The notes beneath the pieces were generated by a model that searched no databases, was not told the DNA's origin, and was given only the letters and a program-made list of their open reading frames with translations. DNA of 62,395 bases from Paludibacter sp. (lineage in GTDB: Bacteria > Bacteroidota > Bacteroidia > Bacteroidales > Paludibacteraceae): assembly GCA_024710005.1 (NCBI GenBank), contig JANJVQ010000026.1, forward strand, positions 1 to 62,395, written 5' to 3'. Positions 1 to 47,109 of this stretch are shown here, piece after piece; positions within the stretch are counted from its first letter, which is position 1; every line of letters starts with the position of its first letter. The position numbers were made by a program, and so were the translations under genes.

Positions 1-72
1 CCCCAAACCGGATTCCTCACATCCCTCAATCAGCGAAAACCAGTCTTCTTGACTGCGTCTGTTTCTTGACAT
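1..72 (-). CDS. IS66-family accessory protein, N-terminal fragment (runs off the window)
   Basis: Reading leftwards from the ATG at 72 gives 24 codons with no stop to the window edge, beginning MSRNRRSQEDW and continuing FSLIEGCEESGLG. The basic start followed by a Q/E-E/D-W helix and an E-SGL turn resembles the N-terminus of the helix-turn-helix accessory protein (TnpA/Orf1) of IS66 elements. A minus-7 element lies just upstream (86-93). A possible element end is the GTAAC-starting sequence on the minus strand at 139, because IS66 ends typically begin GTAA. Only the first 24 residues can be seen, so a phage or chromosomal HTH protein is possible. Confidence 0.45.
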   Translation of the reverse strand, partial: MSRNRRSQEDWFSLIEGCEESGLG

Positions 73-85
73 AACTTTTTTGCCG

Positions 86-117
86 CAAAGATAAAGGCAA
101 AGAATCAGGAGGGCAAG
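86..117 (-). promoter_or_regulatory. Promoter for the leftward IS66-like gene
   Basis: The minus strand carries TATCTTTG (86-93), an exact match to the Bacteroidota minus-7 consensus TAnnTTTG. A CTTG (114-117) sits 20 bp upstream, close to the minus-33 TTTG. The start codon at 72 would leave a leader of only a few bases. Confidence 0.5.
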
Positions 118-190
118 ATGTAGTTGGCCGAATGGTTACAATAATATTGTATATATTTAAGAATTTAAATATATCTTTATTCAGTCTGCT

Positions 191-229
191 AAAAAAATCT
201 CCACTCCTTTCATTCAAAAGAAGTGGAGA
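191..229 (-). terminator. Intrinsic terminator downstream of the GH2 gene
   Basis: On the minus strand an 8-bp stem (TCTCCACT paired with AGTGGAGA, 198-205 and 222-229) is extended inward by four pairs after one mismatch. It is followed directly by a run of seven T (plus-strand A at 191-197). It lies 45 bp beyond the stop of the leftward beta-galactosidase gene and would end the cassette transcript. Confidence 0.75.
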
Positions 230-273
230 ATAGTTCCTTGATTTATTCAAATCAAATCAATATCCTCAATAAA

Positions 274-3534
<3,261 letters not shown>

Positions 3535-3554
3535 TTATAGCTTATTATTAAACA

Positions 3555-3598
3555 ATTATCGGATGATTTGTTAATATTTTAGCAATCCATCCGATAAT
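3555..3598. repeat. 11-bp inverted repeat between two cassette genes
   Basis: ATTATCGGATG (3555-3565) and its exact reverse complement (3588-3598) flank a 22-nt loop in the gap between the small secreted protein gene and the GH2 gene. Neither strand has a convincing T-run after the stem. An operator, a processing site or an mRNA-stability hairpin is as likely as a terminator. Confidence 0.45.
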
Positions 3599-3614
3599 AT
3601 ATTTTATTGTTTAT

Positions 3615-3968
3615 TTATTTTACATTTGGAATTTCTTCGCTCATTCTTTTATAGAAGGATTGTAACTCAGCATTGGTTTTACCTGTAATTTTCTCAAAAG
3701 CTTGTTTGAATTTTTTATTCGGCTTTTTTTGTTTTTCAATTTGTTCCTCTTTGGTTATTTCTCCATTCTTAAATTGAGCAAATATACTTGACAGTTCATC
3801 CACAAATCCTGTACGGACATTCAGCAACTCTTTCTGCTGCTCCTGGTTCAAACTATATTCTTTTGTCGCCGCATCAACAAAATATTGAATTTTCCTTTCC
3901 TTTAGATTTTGTCCAAACATTACAGCACAAAAAGCAATCATTGAGAATAATAATACAATTTTTTTCAT
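3615..3968 (-). CDS. Small secreted helical protein (Spy/CpxP-like)
   Basis: This 117-residue protein has a clear signal peptide (MKKIVLLF to about residue 19, ending MFGQN). The mature part is highly charged and predicted almost wholly helical, with a motif like the LTxxQ repeat of Spy/CpxP proteins (SLNQEQQKEL) and a lysine-rich middle. No enzyme motif is present. It sits between the KDG-type kinase gene (42 bp upstream) and the GH2 gene (107 bp downstream) and is probably co-transcribed. A periplasmic chaperone-like or binding role is only an inference. Confidence 0.7.
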   Translation of the reverse strand: MKKIVLLFSMIAFCAVMFGQNLKERKIQYFVDAATKEYSLNQEQQKELLNVRTGFVDELSSIFAQFKNGEITKEEQIEKQKKPNKKFKQAFEKITGKTNAELQSFYKRMSEEIPNVK

Positions 3969-4010
3969 GATTTCTAATATTTAAAATTAATAGTTAAAAT
4001 ATATCTTCTT

Positions 4011-5102
4011 TTATCGAACTACTCTACCCGATGCAGAACCTCCCATCAGCGTTTCAACTTCAGCTCGTGACACGTAATTAAAATCACCATTAATTGAATG
4101 ACACAAACAAGAAGATGCAATTGCAAATCGAATGGCATCCTCAGGTTTTGAGTGTTTTGGCGTATTTAGTGCATATACCAAAGCTGCACCAAATGAATCG
4201 CCACCTCCTACACGGTCAACGATATTTTTTATTTCGTATGGAGCGTAAACACCATTTTCTAATGGAGCAAAATGTGATAAACCTGTATTGGCATCATAAA
4301 GCATTGCTCCCCAATTGTTGTGAGTTGCGGAATAACTTTCGCGCAAAGTAATTGCCACTTTCTTCACATTAGGGAACTGACGAACGATTTCTTTTGCAAC
4401 GTCGGTGTATTTTTCCACATCAAGTTTACCACCCTGAATATCTGAATTTTCTGCAGATATACCCAACACATCATGTGCATCTTCTTCGTTTGCAATAACA
4501 ACATCGACATAATATAGAATTTTCGTCATTGTTTTTTTTGCCAAATCAGACGCAGACATACCTTTATGCCACTGCCATAATTTTTTTCGAAAATTTAAAT
4601 CGCAAGACACTGTTAAACCTATTTCCTTTGCCGTTCTTACTGCAATTTCTGTCGCATTGGCAGATATTTCAGAAAGTGATGGTGTAATACCTGTAGTGTG
4701 CAACCAGTTAGCATCTTTATATATTTTCTTCCAATCATACACTTCACCTTTTGTCATGGAAACAGAAGAATAATCACGATCGTACATAACTTTACTCGGA
4801 CGTTGATTTGCACCCCGCTCAACAAAATATAATCCAAAACGACCATATTTTACAATTTCAATACCTGATATGTCAATACCTATACCCTTAAGTACAGGCA
4901 GGCATGCTTCTGTCATTTCATTGTCGGGTAAAGCAGTCACAAACTTAACATTTCCGCCCAACAAGGCAATTGATGCTGCAACATTAGCTTCAGCACCGGC
5001 AAAAGTTATATCAAGTTTTCCGGGCATACTCTGACGGAAACGCTGAAAATTCTCCGGACATAAACGTCCCATTATTTCTCCAAAAGTTACAATTGTTTTC
5101 AT
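4011..5102 (-). CDS. kdgK: 2-keto-3-deoxy-sugar-acid kinase (PfkB family, KdgK-like)
   Basis: This 363-residue PfkB/ribokinase-family protein starts MKTIVTFGEIM, which is the usual KdgK start; a longer frame from 5120 adds six residues that do not fit the family. The C-terminal DRVGGGDSF segment forms the anion hole, with catalytic Asp302. KdgK enzymes phosphorylate 2-keto-3-deoxygluconate (or the galactonate epimer) at C6 with ATP in the cytoplasm. The gene directly follows the KDPG-type aldolase gene (76 bp apart) and precedes the small secreted protein. Together kinase and aldolase convert a ketodeoxy acid into pyruvate plus glyceraldehyde 3-phosphate. Gluconate and galactonate series cannot be told apart from sequence. 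Confidence 0.9.
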   Translation of the reverse strand: MKTIVTFGEIMGRLCPENFQRFRQSMPGKLDITFAGAEANVAASIALLGGNVKFVTALPDNEMTEACLPVLKGIGIDISGIEIVKYGRFGLYFVERGANQRPSKVMYDRDYSSVSMTKGEVYDWKKIYKDANWLHTTGITPSLSEISANATEIAVRTAKEIGLTVSCDLNFRKKLWQWHKGMSASDLAKKTMTKILYYVDVVIANEEDAHDVLGISAENSDIQGGKLDVEKYTDVAKEIVRQFPNVKKVAITLRESYSATHNNWGAMLYDANTGLSHFAPLENGVYAPYEIKNIVDRVGGGDSFGAALVYALNTPKHSKPEDAIRFAIASSCLCHSINGDFNYVSRAEVETLMGGSASGRVVR

Positions 5103-5178
5103 CTTAAATTTACTTCTCAACAGAATTAATAAACATACTTAATAAATGATATTCGAGTCAAAAGCTCAGAATATTTAA

Positions 5179-5853
5179 TTATTTACTTCTTAAATTTATA
5201 ATCAAATCACGAATTTCCTTTGCATTTGCAGTGATAATATCCCATTTTTCAGACTGAATCAGCTGACGTTTAGCTATCCACGAACCTCCAATTGCAGTAA
5301 TTAACGGTGATTTCAGATAACTTGCTGCATTTTCCATATTACAACCGCCAAGAGGAATAAATTTCAAGTCCAAATAGCCATATGGCGCCACCATATTTTC
5401 CAAATGTTCCATACCACCCGAGGTTTCTGCAGGAAAATATTTCAGAATACGACATCCTTGCTCTACAGCAAGTTCGATATCACTGGGAGTCATTATTCCC
5501 GGAGCAAAAGACAATCCCTGTTTGATTGCTTCAGCGATCACTTTTGGATTACAACCCGGAGCAACCGCGAAATCAGCCCCCAAGTCTACTACTGCTTTCA
5601 CCTGATCAACTGTAAGTACAGTTCCAAAACCAAGATTGATTTGCGGAAGTTCTTTTTTTATTATTTTAGCGGCATCCAAGGCTGCATCTGTTCGAAGAGT
5701 CAGCTCAACAGTGTTTATACCACCTGCCAGCAAAGCATTAGCCAACGGCAATGCATGTTTCAATTCATCAATAACAAGTACCGCAATAATTCCGGCCTCA
5801 TCAATTTTTTCAATTATATCGGGCGTCATAGCCCTTTGTGAAATAGGCTGCAT
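5179..5853 (-). CDS. eda: KDPG/KDPGal aldolase
   Basis: This 224-residue class I aldolase of the KDPG family carries the Schiff-base lysine at Lys138 in ILKYFPAE, the GTVLT and FAPGIMTP loops and the closing GGSW phosphate-binding turn. It splits 2-keto-3-deoxy-6-phospho-gluconate, or the galactonate form, into pyruvate and D-glyceraldehyde 3-phosphate. The start MQPISQ gives a slightly long N-terminus, and Met9 is an alternative start. The gene lies 12 bp after the aldehyde dehydrogenase gene and upstream of its kinase partner, in one operon. It may also act on hydroxy-ketoglutarate, as E. coli Eda does. Confidence 0.92.
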   Translation of the reverse strand: MQPISQRAMTPDIIEKIDEAGIIAVLVIDELKHALPLANALLAGGINTVELTLRTDAALDAAKIIKKELPQINLGFGTVLTVDQVKAVVDLGADFAVAPGCNPKVIAEAIKQGLSFAPGIMTPSDIELAVEQGCRILKYFPAETSGGMEHLENMVAPYGYLDLKFIPLGGCNMENAASYLKSPLITAIGGSWIAKRQLIQSEKWDIITANAKEIRDLIINLRSK

Positions 5854-5865
5854 GAAATTAATATT

Positions 5866-7302
5866 TTATAATGCTGTTGTAATTCTTTTCTTTACTAAAT
5901 AATCATTCAAAGCCAAATAAGAGCAATCGTGCCCGATACCACTCTCTTTAACTCCACCATGTGGTAGATAAATTGCATATTTCACTCCATTTACCTGAAC
6001 TTCGCCAAATTCAAGCTCTTCAGATAATTGGCGGATACTTTTCTCATTTGTAGAAAACACATACGACACCAAACCATATTCTGTATCATTCCCAATTTCA
6101 ATTGCCTCCTCAATAGTTGAGAACTTCATCATAGCTGCTACAGGACCGAAAATCTCTTCCCTAAAACAACGCATGGACCTCGTAAGACCTGAAATTACTG
6201 TAGGTTCTATAAAATTACCTACTTCCATACCTGCAGGTACTTTACCCCCTAATTCAAGAGTCGCACCACTTGTCACATCTTCAGCGACCATCTTCAATAT
6301 CCTTTCACGATCTTTAGAAGTAACCAACGGACCCATATCATGGTCATTTTCGAATCCAAAGCCAAGTTTAATCTTTTTAGCTTTCGCAATGAATTTCCGT
6401 AAAAACTCATCATACACATTTTCATGGATAATAAACCGGTTAGGAGAAACACAAATTTGTCCGCAGTTTCCATATTTAAGTGCAATTCCAATATTTACAG
6501 CCAAATCCAGATCAGCATCTTCGCATACAATAAAAGGTGCATTTCCACCCAATTCCATACTGACATGTTTGATTGAAGTTGTTGAATCGGCCATCACTTT
6601 TCGTCCCGATGCTGTAGAGCCAATCATAGTCAAGACTTTAGGAATTTTACTAGTTGTTAGCGTTTGTGCGACTTCTTCAACCTGGCCACAAATGAAATTA
6701 ATTACTCCTGCTGGGAAATTAATACTATGTAAAATTTCTCCAAAAACATAAGAAGACAAAGGAGTTAATCCGGAGGGTTTAATAATTATGGAACACCCTG
6801 CTGCTAAAGCAGGTCCAATTTTATAACCGACATTCAACAATGGGAAATTCCATGCCAGATAGGCAACAGCAACGCCTGCAGGTTGATTTACCATTTTATG
6901 ACGGTGAGTGTTTTCTATATCGGGGATAATTTCATCATGCATATTTCGCATTGCCCCAGGATAGAACTCTAGGCCATTTACAATAGCCTCAATATCTTCC
7001 CAGGCACCTTCATAAGTTTTACCCATTTCCATTACTACCGCTTTACGCAAAATATCATCGTTTTTCAATACTTCTTCACGCAATCTCATCATCCACTTGG
7101 TCCGATCTGCCAACGATAATTTTGACCAGTATTTGAAACCTTTTTGTGCCTCTTCCAATGCCAGTTTTGCATCTTCTACACCTGCCCATGCAACCTCGCC
7201 GACAACTTCATCGGTAGCCGGGCATACAACTTGCTTTCTGGCACCCGAAACAGCATCCAGAAGCTGTCCGCCTATATATAATTTTTTATATTCAACGTTC
7301 AT
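5866..7302 (-). CDS. NAD(P)-dependent aldehyde dehydrogenase (candidate anhydrosugar dehydrogenase)
   Basis: This 478-residue aldehyde dehydrogenase superfamily protein has catalytic Cys284 (GNCGQICVS), general base Glu250 (MELGGNAPF) and the Rossmann GSTASG segment. It oxidises an aldehyde to an acid in the cytoplasm. It begins 2 bp after the enolase-superfamily gene, so the pair probably acts in sequence. In carrageenan-degrading Bacteroidota the same pairing (DauA and DauB) oxidises 3,6-anhydro-D-galactose and then opens the anhydro-acid ring. Close relatives act on succinate semialdehyde, lactaldehyde or ketoglutaric semialdehyde, so the substrate assignment rests on context. The length is that of a complete protein. 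Confidence 0.88.
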   Translation of the reverse strand: MNVEYKKLYIGGQLLDAVSGARKQVVCPATDEVVGEVAWAGVEDAKLALEEAQKGFKYWSKLSLADRTKWMMRLREEVLKNDDILRKAVVMEMGKTYEGAWEDIEAIVNGLEFYPGAMRNMHDEIIPDIENTHRHKMVNQPAGVAVAYLAWNFPLLNVGYKIGPALAAGCSIIIKPSGLTPLSSYVFGEILHSINFPAGVINFICGQVEEVAQTLTTSKIPKVLTMIGSTASGRKVMADSTTSIKHVSMELGGNAPFIVCEDADLDLAVNIGIALKYGNCGQICVSPNRFIIHENVYDEFLRKFIAKAKKIKLGFGFENDHDMGPLVTSKDRERILKMVAEDVTSGATLELGGKVPAGMEVGNFIEPTVISGLTRSMRCFREEIFGPVAAMMKFSTIEEAIEIGNDTEYGLVSYVFSTNEKSIRQLSEELEFGEVQVNGVKYAIYLPHGGVKESGIGHDCSYLALNDYLVKKRITTAL

Positions 7303-7304
7303 AA

Positions 7305-8438
7305 CTATTCTTTTAATGTGTATTTATATAATGCATCTTCATTTAATTCAAATCCCAAGCCCGGTTTATCACCTAACATAATTATTCCATTTTCAAAAAC
7401 TATGGAATTATGAGTCAACTCATCCCTTAAACCATTTTCAGACCTGTCATATTCCATATAACAAATCTGAGAATTCATTCTACCGGATACAATATCTAAG
7501 TTAGTAATAAAATGTGCAGCGGCCGAAAGTGCAATTCCAGTTCCCCAGGAATGAGGAACAAGATCTACTCCATAAACAGTTGCTAATGTTGCAATACGTT
7601 TTGCTTCTGTAATACCACCTGTAGAGCATATATCCGGTTGAATAATATCAACTGATTTTGAACTTAATAACGTTTGAAAACCATAACGAAGATATTCACA
7701 TTCACCCCCAGCAATCGGAATAGAAGTTTTCAATCTCAATTCATAATATTGGTCATAAAATTCTGGTGAAATGGGTTCTTCAAACCATCCTATATTATAT
7801 TTTTCTATTCCATTTGCCAATTGAATTGCTTCCCTTAAATTATAGGCATGATTCGAATCAACCATTAAATTGATATCATTTCCAATAGTTTCTCTAATTT
7901 TCCCTACAAGTTCAATATCCCTTTCAATACCAAGCCCAACTTTCATTTTCATTGCTTTGAAGCCCATGCCAACATACGCTTTAGCTTCATCACAAAGTTT
8001 CTCGTCAAGATTATTGCATTTTGTAAAATACAATCCTGTAGCATAAGGAATTACACAATCACGTTTTTTCCCACCTAAAAGCATATATACTGGTTGTTGC
8101 ATTATTTTGCCTTTCAAGTCCCAAAGAGCTACATCAATAGCACTGATAGCTGAGACCAATATTCCTCTTCGCGCATAATCCAGTGTACGACGATACATTG
8201 TATTCCAAATAGTTTCAGTCTCCAACGAATCCATACCAATAATAAACTGTGCTAAATGTTGTATTCCGGCCTTTATTATTCCTGCTGGTCCATAACCTTC
8301 ACCCCAACCTACATGACCAGAATCTGTAGTAATTTTCACTATACAAATACGTCTTTCAGTATATTCCCACTGCGAGAAATAAAAACTTTCTTTCAATTTG
8401 TCAAAAAGCACAAAACTTTCAATTGATTTAATCTTCAT
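7305..8438 (-). CDS. Mandelate racemase/enolase-superfamily dehydratase or cycloisomerase
   Basis: This 377-residue protein shows the full mandelate-racemase subgroup signature: a KxK motif at Lys164 and Lys166, magnesium ligands Asp194, the FEEP glutamate and the GGECEY glutamate, and the Asp269-His296 dyad. Such enzymes abstract the proton alpha to a carboxylate and eliminate water or open an anhydro ring, giving a 2-keto-3-deoxy acid. That product feeds the kinase and aldolase downstream. Candidate substrates are 3,6-anhydrogalactonate, galactonate, gluconate and related acids. It is the first enzyme gene after the transporter (112-bp gap) and nearly abuts the aldehyde dehydrogenase gene. 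Confidence 0.9.
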   Translation of the reverse strand: MKIKSIESFVLFDKLKESFYFSQWEYTERRICIVKITTDSGHVGWGEGYGPAGIIKAGIQHLAQFIIGMDSLETETIWNTMYRRTLDYARRGILVSAISAIDVALWDLKGKIMQQPVYMLLGGKKRDCVIPYATGLYFTKCNNLDEKLCDEAKAYVGMGFKAMKMKVGLGIERDIELVGKIRETIGNDINLMVDSNHAYNLREAIQLANGIEKYNIGWFEEPISPEFYDQYYELRLKTSIPIAGGECEYLRYGFQTLLSSKSVDIIQPDICSTGGITEAKRIATLATVYGVDLVPHSWGTGIALSAAAHFITNLDIVSGRMNSQICYMEYDRSENGLRDELTHNSIVFENGIIMLGDKPGLGFELNEDALYKYTLKE

Positions 8439-8550
8439 CGTAAACTATTTTGTATTAAACACCAAATTTCAACTGAATATCTTTTCAAAGTAAAAAATAA
8501 ATTTTAACAAAACTTTCTTTTCCAGTATAATCTTGAATCAATTCAGACTT

Positions 8551-9561
8551 TTAAGCTACACTATTAGCATAACCCAATATAATTGTTGCTATAATAAGCA
8601 TTAACAATCCTAAAAGTAAAATCAAAAAAGGTTTGGCAGCACCTTTCCATTCTTTATTCATATATGCCCATATATTACTAACAATAAGTGACAACCCTAA
8701 CAAAATTGGCCATCCTATTACAGAACCCATTTCGCCCATGAGTGTTGCACCTTGACCATAAATACCTAAGGCACCAAACCAGAATAATGATGCTAATATA
8801 GCCCATTTATATGCCTTTCCTGATTTTTCAACCTTGAAAGTATTCCATGTTTTATTTTTAAATAATAAAAATATAGCATAACCAGCATTCATTAAATATC
8901 CTCCCCAAAGCACAACTACCCATATTGCAAGACTACTATTGCGTGATAAAGCACCTGCTTCAATTGCAAGGTCACCAATAGGTTTACCATTATCGAAACC
9001 TACACTTAATAGTGCAGACAATAATCCACTTAAAATGGCTATAATTAATCCTGCCTTCAAATTAATTCCACTACCTGCACCATCTTGTAATAATTTATCC
9101 TTTTTTATACCTGCAATTGCCGTGAGCGCCACACCAACCAACATTACTAATACACCGGCAATAACATAAGGAAAAGATGGACGATCAAACACATTTTCTT
9201 TAGTAAAGAAAGGAATTAAACTACCAGCTGCGGCACATAAACCCATTACGATTCCATAAGTCAAAGATATTCCAATGTACGGAATACTTTTCCCAAACAT
9301 TATACCACCGATACCCCACAATAAACCGAATAGCATACCTGAAAGAATCGATTCCAAAGGTGCTTTTGCTATTACACCAAATAAATCTGGTACCACTAAC
9401 AAAGCCCAAATCAAAGGCAATAAAAACATTGCTATTGTAGCATGTACCAACCACCATCCTTCCCATTTTAATGGAGACATAAATTTCATTCCCAAACCGA
9501 ATGATCCCTGAAAAATACTGGCAATAATTACCAGAGCTAAAGGCAAAAATGCAAATTCCAT
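8551..9561 (-). CDS. rhaT: RhaT-family sugar/proton symporter
   Basis: This 336-residue integral membrane protein has about ten hydrophobic helices and matches the L-rhamnose-proton symporter (RhaT) family of the drug/metabolite transporter superfamily. Examples are the Gly-rich LLWGIGGIMFG helix and the SLIVSNIWAYMNKEWKG ending. It imports a neutral sugar across the inner membrane with protons. No rhamnose isomerase, kinase or aldolase gene lies nearby. The neighbours instead process an oxidised sugar, so the cargo is probably not rhamnose and may be the anhydro or deoxy sugar used by the block. It is the first gene of the leftward operon. Confidence 0.88.
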   Translation of the reverse strand: MEFAFLPLALVIIASIFQGSFGLGMKFMSPLKWEGWWLVHATIAMFLLPLIWALLVVPDLFGVIAKAPLESILSGMLFGLLWGIGGIMFGKSIPYIGISLTYGIVMGLCAAAGSLIPFFTKENVFDRPSFPYVIAGVLVMLVGVALTAIAGIKKDKLLQDGAGSGINLKAGLIIAILSGLLSALLSVGFDNGKPIGDLAIEAGALSRNSSLAIWVVVLWGGYLMNAGYAIFLLFKNKTWNTFKVEKSGKAYKWAILASLFWFGALGIYGQGATLMGEMGSVIGWPILLGLSLIVSNIWAYMNKEWKGAAKPFLILLLGLLMLIIATIILGYANSVA

Positions 9562-9871
9562 AATATTTGATTTTTTATTTACAAAGAAAAAGAAATATAA
9601 AGTATCAAGTTTACATGCAATTACCCTTTAATTACACAAATTTATCCAAAAGATAAAAAATACTGTGAATTTGGGTTGAAAAGAACTTTGCCAGACCTGA
9701 AAGATGAGGGTGAAAAGTTTCACGCTGGATCACTTGTCGGCACTGGAAATTACAAACAAGAAATTTCAGTTTCCCAACAACTTCGATGTGACTGAACATT
9801 TCAGGTATAGTTTTGGCAATTTGTACATGGCCATAAAATACACATTCCATGTATACTTTATTTACAAAAAC
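9562..9871. other. Intergenic stretch between rhaT and the tRNA gene
   Basis: This stretch of about 310 bp has no recognisable gene. Two overlapping frames of about 80 codons on opposite strands show no family signature. A minus-strand minus-7 match TAAATTTG (9637-9644) could drive rhaT and the cassette, with a leader of about 70 nt, but it has no minus-33 element at the right distance. The middle part (9680-9840) could be a decayed gene or the remains of an integration event next to the tRNA. Confidence 0.4.
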
Positions 9872-9909
9872 AAAAAGCACTTACATTTTATATCATGTAA
9901 GTGCTTTTT
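9872..9909 (-). terminator. Bidirectional intrinsic terminator after the tRNA gene
   Basis: A perfect 15-bp stem (9872-9886 with 9895-9909) with an 8-nt loop has A-runs on one side and T-runs on the other. On the minus strand it follows the tRNA 3' end by 12 bp and ends in a T-run, so it should end the tRNA transcript. It could act on rightward transcripts too. Confidence 0.85.
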
Positions 9910-9921
9910 TATTTCCCAACG

Positions 9922-9996
9922 TGGGCCCTGTTGGGCTTGAACCAACGACCCCCTGATTATGAGTCAGGTGCTACTAACCAACTGAGCTAAGGGCCC
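9922..9996 (-). tRNA. tRNA with anticodon CAU (Met elongator or Ile2)
   Basis: The minus strand folds into a complete cloverleaf. The acceptor is GGGCCC paired with GGGCCC, the D-stem is short (3 bp), the anticodon arm is CCTGA-CTCATAA-TCAGG with anticodon CAT, the T-arm carries GGTTCAAGC, and the discriminator is A at 9922. CCA is not encoded. A CAU anticodon with this body could be elongator methionine or the lysidine-modified isoleucine tRNA, and the T-arm resembles the latter. Its 3' end faces the catabolic block, which is the usual side for integrated DNA. Confidence 0.93.
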
Positions 9997-46695: not shown

Positions 46696-47089
46696 GGGGC
46701 TGTTTGGTTTTGACAGCAGGCAGAAAGGATAAGTAAGCATGTCGAGCGGGGTGAAAACGGCTCGTAAATCACGGTTCACAAAATCATAACTGGCGAAACA
46801 AATTACGCTCTTGCTGCTTAATCGAATCATAGTAGATAAAGCTTAATCCAGGCACAAGGTGCCAGGACGGGACATCCTCCAAAGGCCGTCGCTCCGAGGC
46901 CGACGAATTGAGGGTGCAGCTAAATCGGGGATAGTCGCGCTTAGCCCCGGAGGTGCGATGAAATAAAGGGGATAAGGCGCAGATTGGTGGCTTCGGTCTT
47001 GCCTGCGCTCGAAAACCTAAGCGAAGATAAACATGTAGAAAGCTTATTATTTCCTTGTTTGGACGAGGGTTCGACTCCCTCCAGCTCCA
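46696..47089 (+). ncRNA. ssrA: tmRNA
   Basis: The tRNA-like ends pair GGGGCTG (46696-46702) with CAGCTCC (47082-47088), followed by discriminator A. A T-arm GAGGG-TTCGACT-CCCTC precedes the 3' strand. The tag frame starts at GGC 46792 and encodes GETNYALAA, then TAA (46819-46821). CCA is not encoded. tmRNA rescues stalled ribosomes with SmpB and tags the nascent chain for degradation. The accessory segment lies on its 5' side, whereas most integrations use the 3' end. Confidence 0.97.
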
Positions 47090-47109
47090 CTATTCTTATT
47101 CTAACACAC

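Follow-up and report, generated by a model that had tools for sequence, protein, structure and literature searches.

Which enzyme frees 3,6-anhydro-D-galactose (D-AnG) where GH127 and GH129-like enzymes are missing? The account of Pseudoalteromonas in PMC6923384 leaves this question open, and it is made concrete by an operon of Paludibacter sp. (assembly GCA_024710005.1). D-AnG is a sugar of red-seaweed carrageenan; here its known pathway appears to occur in a lineage that seldom has it, bearing several signs of acquisition and lacking the usual sugar-releasing enzyme beside it. The window, that is the whole stretch of DNA analysed (62,395 nucleotides), is the whole of contig C35 (JANJVQ010000026.1) of a 3.24 Mb genome in 36 contigs. 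The operon lies on the minus strand at window positions 274-9561. An earlier note on this DNA had read the part at 4011-9561 as a cassette that takes up and burns an anhydro or oxidised galactose derivative. From gene content, homology, synteny, composition and absences in the searches made, we infer the reactions, transport and transfer discussed below, and our data indicate that the operon is probably a catabolic route for D-AnG. Pfam and NCBIfam profile searches assigned its genes to the following families, given in transcription order:

8551 to 9561, minus strand: RhaT-family (DMT) sugar/H+ symporter, the probable D-AnG importer (Pfam RhaT over cut-off)
7305 to 8438, minus strand: dauB-like enzyme of the enolase superfamily, putative 3,6-anhydro-D-galactonate cycloisomerase (best PDB match 5OLC)
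5866 to 7302, minus strand: dauA-like aldehyde dehydrogenase (ALDH), putative 3,6-anhydro-D-galactose dehydrogenase (best PDB match 6PNU)
5179 to 5853, minus strand: KDPG/KHG aldolase of Eda type, in the dauD role (TIGR01182 over cut-off; PF01081)
4011 to 5120, minus strand: PfkB-family 2-keto-3-deoxy sugar-acid kinase, in the dauC role (PF00294)
3615 to 3968, minus strand: small DUF4890-like protein with a signal-like N-terminus (PF16231 at 21.9 bits, below the cut-off of 29.7)
274 to 3507, minus strand: LacZ-type GH2 beta-galactosidase with a signal-like N-terminus (GH2 and LacZ Pfam domains)

The intergenic gaps, in the same order, are 112, 2, 12, 58, 42 and 107 bp. All gene places given by the earlier note were correct, on the minus strand, including the exact 2 bp between the ALDH gene and the mandelate-racemase-type (enolase-superfamily) gene. 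The note had ended the operon with a secreted GH2 enzyme. A GH2 gene does stand there, and its product has a signal-like N-terminus by eye, but it lies outside 4011-9561 and the gene for the small protein comes between.

The enolase-superfamily enzyme matches 5OLC with 489 bits and 57% identity, and the next structure, the galactarolactone cycloisomerase (GCI) 4GGB, with 309 bits and 40%; all others stay below 200 bits. It is thus closer to DauB than to GCI. PMC5698469 describes 5OLC as DauB (ZGAL_3156), a 3,6-anhydro-D-galactonate cycloisomerase, and names K166, D194, E220, E246, H296, D87 and W298 for metal binding, acid/base catalysis and the pocket. In our alignment all seven are kept in the window enzyme, which bears out the claim of a full catalytic set as far as those named residues go; position 296 has N in place of H in 1 of 86 aligned rows. 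Eighteen columns that are fixed (at least 97%) across 83 DauB-like rows are missing in three GCI-like rows; both the window enzyme and 5OLC have all 18. Gluconate- and mannonate-type dehydratases score far below DauB. In the DauB tree, the window enzyme belongs to a clade with bootstrap 100 that includes SZUA-561, Labilibaculum, Ancylomarina, Draconibacterium, Maribacter, Flavobacterium, Dyadobacter, Saprospiraceae and others. The 5OLC clade (Arenibacter, Kriegella, Pseudozobellia and Reichenbachiella; bootstrap 86) forms a branch of its own inside the DauB-like group. One part of a dau module, a DauB-type cycloisomerase with its catalytic residues, is therefore present.

The ALDH matches 6PNU with 509 bits and its next structure with 323. 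DauA is active on D-AnG and 6PNU is among the depositions of the same Pseudoalteromonas work, according to PMC6923384; from its ALDH label, 6PNU is inferred to be DauA. The DauA proteins of Pseudoalteromonas carrageenovora and Zobellia are given as 48% identical (PMC6262041). The window ALDH is 49% identical to 6PNU and 53% to an Arenibacter ALDH, and these two are 48% identical to each other. N152, E250, C284 and E383, which we take to be the ALDH motif positions, are identical in 75 of 75 ALDH rows. Trees were built from 44 chosen ALDH rows with four outgroups (SSADH and BADH only) and from the matching DauB rows. The ALDH tree sets the outgroups apart and has 6PNU as its first branch, with the window and Zobellia types nested inside; lactaldehyde and semialdehyde dehydrogenases score far below DauA. 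The window ALDH is thus of DauA type and nearest to a characterised anhydrogalactose dehydrogenase. In these scores and trees, neither 5866-7302 nor 7305-8438 grouped with unrelated dehydrogenases or dehydratases. Of the anhydro or oxidised galactose derivatives suggested, D-AnG fits best, since DauB and DauA are the top PDB matches.

We compared the operon with 78 DauB-like loci, counted from 80, leaving out the GCI-like L110 and L111 and also L029-L031; sequence was at least 20 kb for 58 and less for 20. ALDH genes occur in 70 of the 78, RhaT in 43, sulfatases in 60, GH127 in 17 and AraC in 46. The pairing of DauB and ALDH is not due to chance, because dauB directly adjoins the ALDH gene in 62 of these related loci. 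At least one carbohydrate gene (GH127, DagB-like, GH2, GH78-like, sulfatase, GH16 or SusC) is found in 57 of the 58 longer loci, and a sulfatase in 49. DauBs of the window's clade are paired with either ALDH type across loci. In L033 and L040 their partners are a Zobellia-type ALDH and DagB-like genes, the same company that Zobellia-type DauBs keep in L087 and L090. This exchange of DauB, ALDH and DagB-like partners between clades argues for one shared substrate.

An inner-membrane sugar symporter beside dauB is likewise present. The window RhaT is over the Pfam cut-off and under those of the NCBIfam RhaT models. Its sequence cluster is found in 43 of the 78 loci, and its median score to the DauB-linked RhaT cluster is 407 bits. 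PMC5698469 lists ZGAL_3157, a DMT sugar/H+ symporter, beside dauB, with log2 fold changes of 8.4 on kappa-carrageenan, 8.0 on iota-carrageenan and 7.0 on D-AnG. Since ZGAL_3157 is induced on D-AnG, the link of the transporter with the route was already known, and the idea of a new-specificity importer is not new; that paper was the only relevant one among the matches listed in a literature search on anhydrogalactose with RhaT or symporter. The earlier note had found no rhamnose genes, which holds for the window and fails for the genome. A rhamnose-type cluster lies on contig C36 and includes a RhaT gene (35% identity and 142 bits to the window RhaT), and rhamnose uptake by the window RhaT was rejected on this ground. 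Gene names on C36, except RhaT and GH78, which were searched, were read from N-terminal sequences.

In the proposed route, the symporter would bring free D-AnG into the cytoplasm, the ALDH would oxidise it to 3,6-anhydro-D-galactonate, and the DauB-type enzyme would open the anhydro ring to give 2-keto-3-deoxy-D-galactonate. The PfkB kinase would phosphorylate this product, which the aldolase would split into pyruvate and glyceraldehyde-3-phosphate, and the exported GH2 would take D-galactose off oligosaccharides. The operon would then be the cytoplasmic sugar-burning half of a carrageenan locus, arrived as an AT-rich island. Pathway, enzymes and transporter link are already published, and the operon is a further example. 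What is new here is the AT-rich tRNA-linked island and the apparently stranded form of the operon.

Known systems resemble the window operon in different respects. In Zobellia galactanivorans, ZGAL_3153-3157 (dauD, dauC, dauA, dauB and symporter, as listed in PMC5698469) cluster the same five functions, with the same DauB and ALDH families and the symporter beside dauB. Unlike in the window, dagA, dagB and cgrA are placed inside the Zobellia cluster, and the carrageenan-induced GH2 gene ZGAL_3633 lies far from it. The Pseudoalteromonas carrageenan loci (PMC6923384, PMC6262041) also have a DauA homolog (6PNU) with dau genes, the P. carrageenovora DauB being given as 40% identical to ZgDauB (PMC6262041). 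P. carrageenovora is reported to lack GH127 and GH129, as the window genome lacks a strong GH127, but these loci have carrageenases, sulfatases and GH167, unlike the window operon. The locus of Labilibaculum filiforme (L036, L158, L159) has RhaT, DauB, ALDH, aldolase, kinase and GH2 in the window's order with 67-82% identity, and differs by a sulfatase between kinase and GH2. It continues with AraC, SusCD, sulfatases, an FAD oxidoreductase and two GH127 genes, whereas the window contig ends there; no close copy of these extra genes was found in the window-genome DNA compared. We know of no study of the Labilibaculum locus.

The kinase and aldolase differ from those of the Zobellia-type locus. 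The kinase, whose start is probably the ATG at 5102 by comparison with relatives, matches best the KDG kinase 2afb (280 bits). It has a paralog of 49% identity on contig C3, in what we read as a separate uronate-type cluster with its own kinase and aldolase. The dauC and dauD positions of the Zobellia-type locus hold a DGOK kinase and another aldolase with 28% identity to the window's. The Arenibacter locus L090 (AraC, GntP, RhaT, DauB, ALDH, DGOK, aldolase, DagB-like) has the listed gene order of ZGAL_3159-3152; ZgDauC is therefore presumably a DGOK-type kinase, a difference of kinase and aldolase (sub)family that is taken from this synteny rather than from Zobellia sequences. The suggestion that the four genes are the dauABCD families thus stands for the ALDH and the enolase-superfamily enzyme and falls for the kinase (PfkB, not DGOK) and the aldolase. 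Kinase types swap within the window's DauB clade, with DGOK in L034, L035, L044 and L047 and PfkB in the window, L036, L037, L038, L042, L043 and L104. Over the 78 loci there are 24 PfkB and 9 DGOK kinases. In 22 loci, for example at L033:12616-13380, an HpcH/HpaI aldolase replaces kinase and KDPG aldolase, a sign that the D-AnG route may run there without phosphorylation.

The position and composition of the operon suggest that it was horizontally acquired as an AT-rich island directly 3' of a tRNA-Met gene. The features that bound it are:

9921 to 9996, minus strand: tRNA-Met (ARAGORN), with the operon at its 3' side
198 to 229, minus strand: terminator-like hairpin (14 pairs, T-run) 3' of the GH2 gene
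1 to 139, strand not assigned: repeat that recurs, with 100% identity over its 139 bp, at ends of contigs C33 and C6

GC content is 36.0% in window 1-9920 and 42.4% beyond the tRNA-Met gene; the sulfatase regions examined elsewhere in the genome have 40-45%. The six operon open reading frames (ORFs) of at least 200 aa have a GC content at third codon positions (GC3) of 22.0-29.9%, the six lowest of 41 in the window, the other 35 having at least 32.7%. Within the order, a DauB match at E<=1e-100 occurs in four genomes out of 393, counting that of the window, and in none of the five other listed genomes of its family at that threshold. Operon homologues have a GC3 of 18-30% in Labilibaculum and Ancylomarina and 42-51% in SZUA-561. 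A low-GC donor is therefore more likely. The repeat at 1-139 is probably the end of a multi-copy insertion sequence, presumably IS66-like. Beyond the GH2 gene, the only continuation across the contig end is this repeat shared with C33 and C6, and the stretches read there hold no carrageenan locus.

A number of points weigh against this account of the operon. As to the enzymes, support is modest (76 and 84) for the inner nodes on which the position of the window ALDH with respect to 6PNU depends, and no activity is known to us in the DauB clade or the ALDH subtype to which the window enzymes belong. A kinase and an aldolase are present but are of PfkB and Eda type, whose galacto- or gluco-specificity cannot be read from sequence; both are of a KDG type, and their sequences give no sign that they take the galacto epimer. 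As to transfer, a 20 kb stretch at C36:15000-34999 has 33.2% GC, and GC3 is 30% or less in 12 of the 211 other long ORFs analysed from the genome, so that low GC alone is no proof. No integrase was seen, and neither the window nor the stretches of C6 and C33 showed a duplication of the tRNA end of at least 12 bp. As to the sugar, the genome has no strong GH127, the sole match (C30) reaching 70 bits, no DagB match in a search without a positive control, and one weak GH16 match only. These searches therefore point to no source of D-AnG. PMC5698469 makes the case that D-AnG seldom occurs free in nature and that it puts Zobellia under stress, a point against a life on the free sugar. Single sulfatases (C10:34137, C17:107083 and C10:39894) reach 56-63% identity to those in DauB loci, so a dispersed carrageenan system may exist in the genome. 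Completeness of the assembly is stated as 99.85%, and the absent genes may still lie on a contig that was not binned or assembled.

The substrate could instead be a different sugar acid or aldehyde sugar, such as the aldonates D-galactonate and D-arabinonate, galactarolactone or a gluco-configured counterpart of D-AnG. A gluco-configured substrate would agree with the KDG/KDPG family matches of kinase and aldolase, and the NCBIfam models nearest to the enolase-superfamily enzyme are those for arabinonate and galactonate dehydratase, all below cut-off. We consider such a substrate unlikely, because 5OLC outscores galactarolactone cycloisomerase and all other structures by the figures given above, DGOK and PfkB kinases interchange within one DauB clade, the uronate-type cluster on C3 has its own kinase and aldolase, and an ALDH is present although aldonates need none. 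3,6-Anhydro-L-galactose from agar would involve parallel chemistry, and the window enzyme is homologous (149 bits) to 5XD7, the L-anhydrogalactonate cycloisomerase. It is a highly improbable substrate, since 5OLC beats 5XD7 by 340 bits, the D- and L-sugar enzymes are given as only 35% and 31% identical (PMC5698469), and the only GH16 match of the genome is weak.

The missing strong GH127, the lack of a close regulator and the repeat at the contig end might also mark a decayed remnant without function. This is quite improbable, as the frames are intact, the named catalytic residues are kept and the intergenic gaps are short. The organism might have acquired, on a tRNA-linked island, only the import-and-burn half of a carrageenan system and cross-feed on sugar or disaccharide that others free, or an unrecognised glycosidase family might free D-AnG. 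We think this less likely than not, in part because PMC5698469 holds that D-AnG is rarely free. An unrecognised glycosidase would be an option shared with those Carboxylicivirga and pelagic genomes that have dauB loci and no strong GH127.

Of 16 DauB-bearing genomes, 14 have a best GH127 match of 288-412 bits, and the two without one are the window genome and Carboxylicivirga mesophila (L082, 22 bits). All eight other searched genomes of the window's DauB clade (L038 left out) have a strong GH127, checked as the DauB-linked type (66-70% to that cluster) in G197 and G393 only. In a second set of 17, a strong GH127 was found in three of three comparison genomes and in 2 of 14 Carboxylicivirga and pelagic genomes (L081, L093), seven of these 14 being only 1.1-1.8 Mb and possibly incomplete. 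The core of the Bacteroidota carrageenan utilisation system comprises dauABCD, dagA, cgsB, cgrA, cgtA and cgtB, and of these a strong dagA (the GH127 anhydrogalactosidase) and a linked cgrA-type regulator were looked for here without success. The AraC regulator that adjoins GH127 in G197 has no close counterpart here: with the cgrA-type AraC of Labilibaculum as query, the best protein of the window genome reached 31% and 121 bits, and that of G197 75%.

Our searches of the genome turned up no D-AnG-releasing enzyme of the kinds they covered; GH82, GH150 and GH167 were not searched for. The GH127-like protein on C30 (917 aa) was rejected, as it does not match the GH127 cluster linked to DauB at 1e-20 and has 25-29% identity over about 240-305 aa to the GH127s of two relatives. 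Of the three GH78 matches, the one on C36 was also rejected, being 22-23% identical to operon-type GH78-like proteins and no close copy of GH78-like cluster 25; the two on C30 gave nothing to the operon-type cluster at 1e-20. Cluster 25 itself lies beside a GH2 gene (cluster 16) near dauB in L080, L081, L082, L083, L086, L093, L096 and L098, and six of these eight genomes show no strong GH127. GH127 and GH78-like genes, found in 16 and 7 of 58 neighbourhoods, never occur together, which is weak evidence alone as the loci are related. In some relatives without a strong GH127 the cluster 25 gene stands within the operon, and its protein, judged from such neighbourhoods, is a candidate for an unrecognised anhydrogalactosidase.

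The genome has 33 sulfatase matches, on contigs C7, C10, C11, C13, C17, C25, C28 and C30. Those of 56-63% identity have their counterparts in L104, L066, L081 and L093, and SZUA-561 (L104) has one upstream of the operon. Identity to the sulfatases from the loci of Labilibaculum and G197 is at most 39%, and SusC/SusD-like matches are 32% or less in the approximately 0.46 Mb of the window genome compared. No ortholog set of a carrageenan locus was found in the sulfatase-rich regions of C7, C10, C11, C13, C17, C25 and C30. The C17 sulfatase is closest to 7OZC (783 bits) and related 6-O-sulfatase structures, the carrageenan sulfatases listed reaching 148 bits at most. Two unusual domain pairings were noticed: an aldose epimerase with a raffinose-synthase-like domain (C11:1518-4811), and a GH2-barrel-like piece with an aldose epimerase (C17:103284-105467).

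The window GH2 scores 966 bits with the NCBIfam model Bga2A, under its cut-off of 999, and its cluster (cl12) is found in 20 of 78 DauB loci. Homologues of the DUF4890-like protein were found by tblastn, with 36-45% identity, in 13 other DauB loci (L049, L050, L051, L053, L056, L057, L058, L062, L064, L065, L071, L076 and L108), which we take, by their titles, to be Flavobacteriaceae. Two more loci gave weaker matches, and L104, L036 and L038 gave none. Terminator-like sites in the region number 17, with 6.7 expected. Scans for sigma-70 sites (41 found, 42.1 expected) and for TANNTTTG (76 found, 64.6 expected) were not used. An ordinary tmRNA gene with the tag GETNYALAA lies at window 46696-47090.

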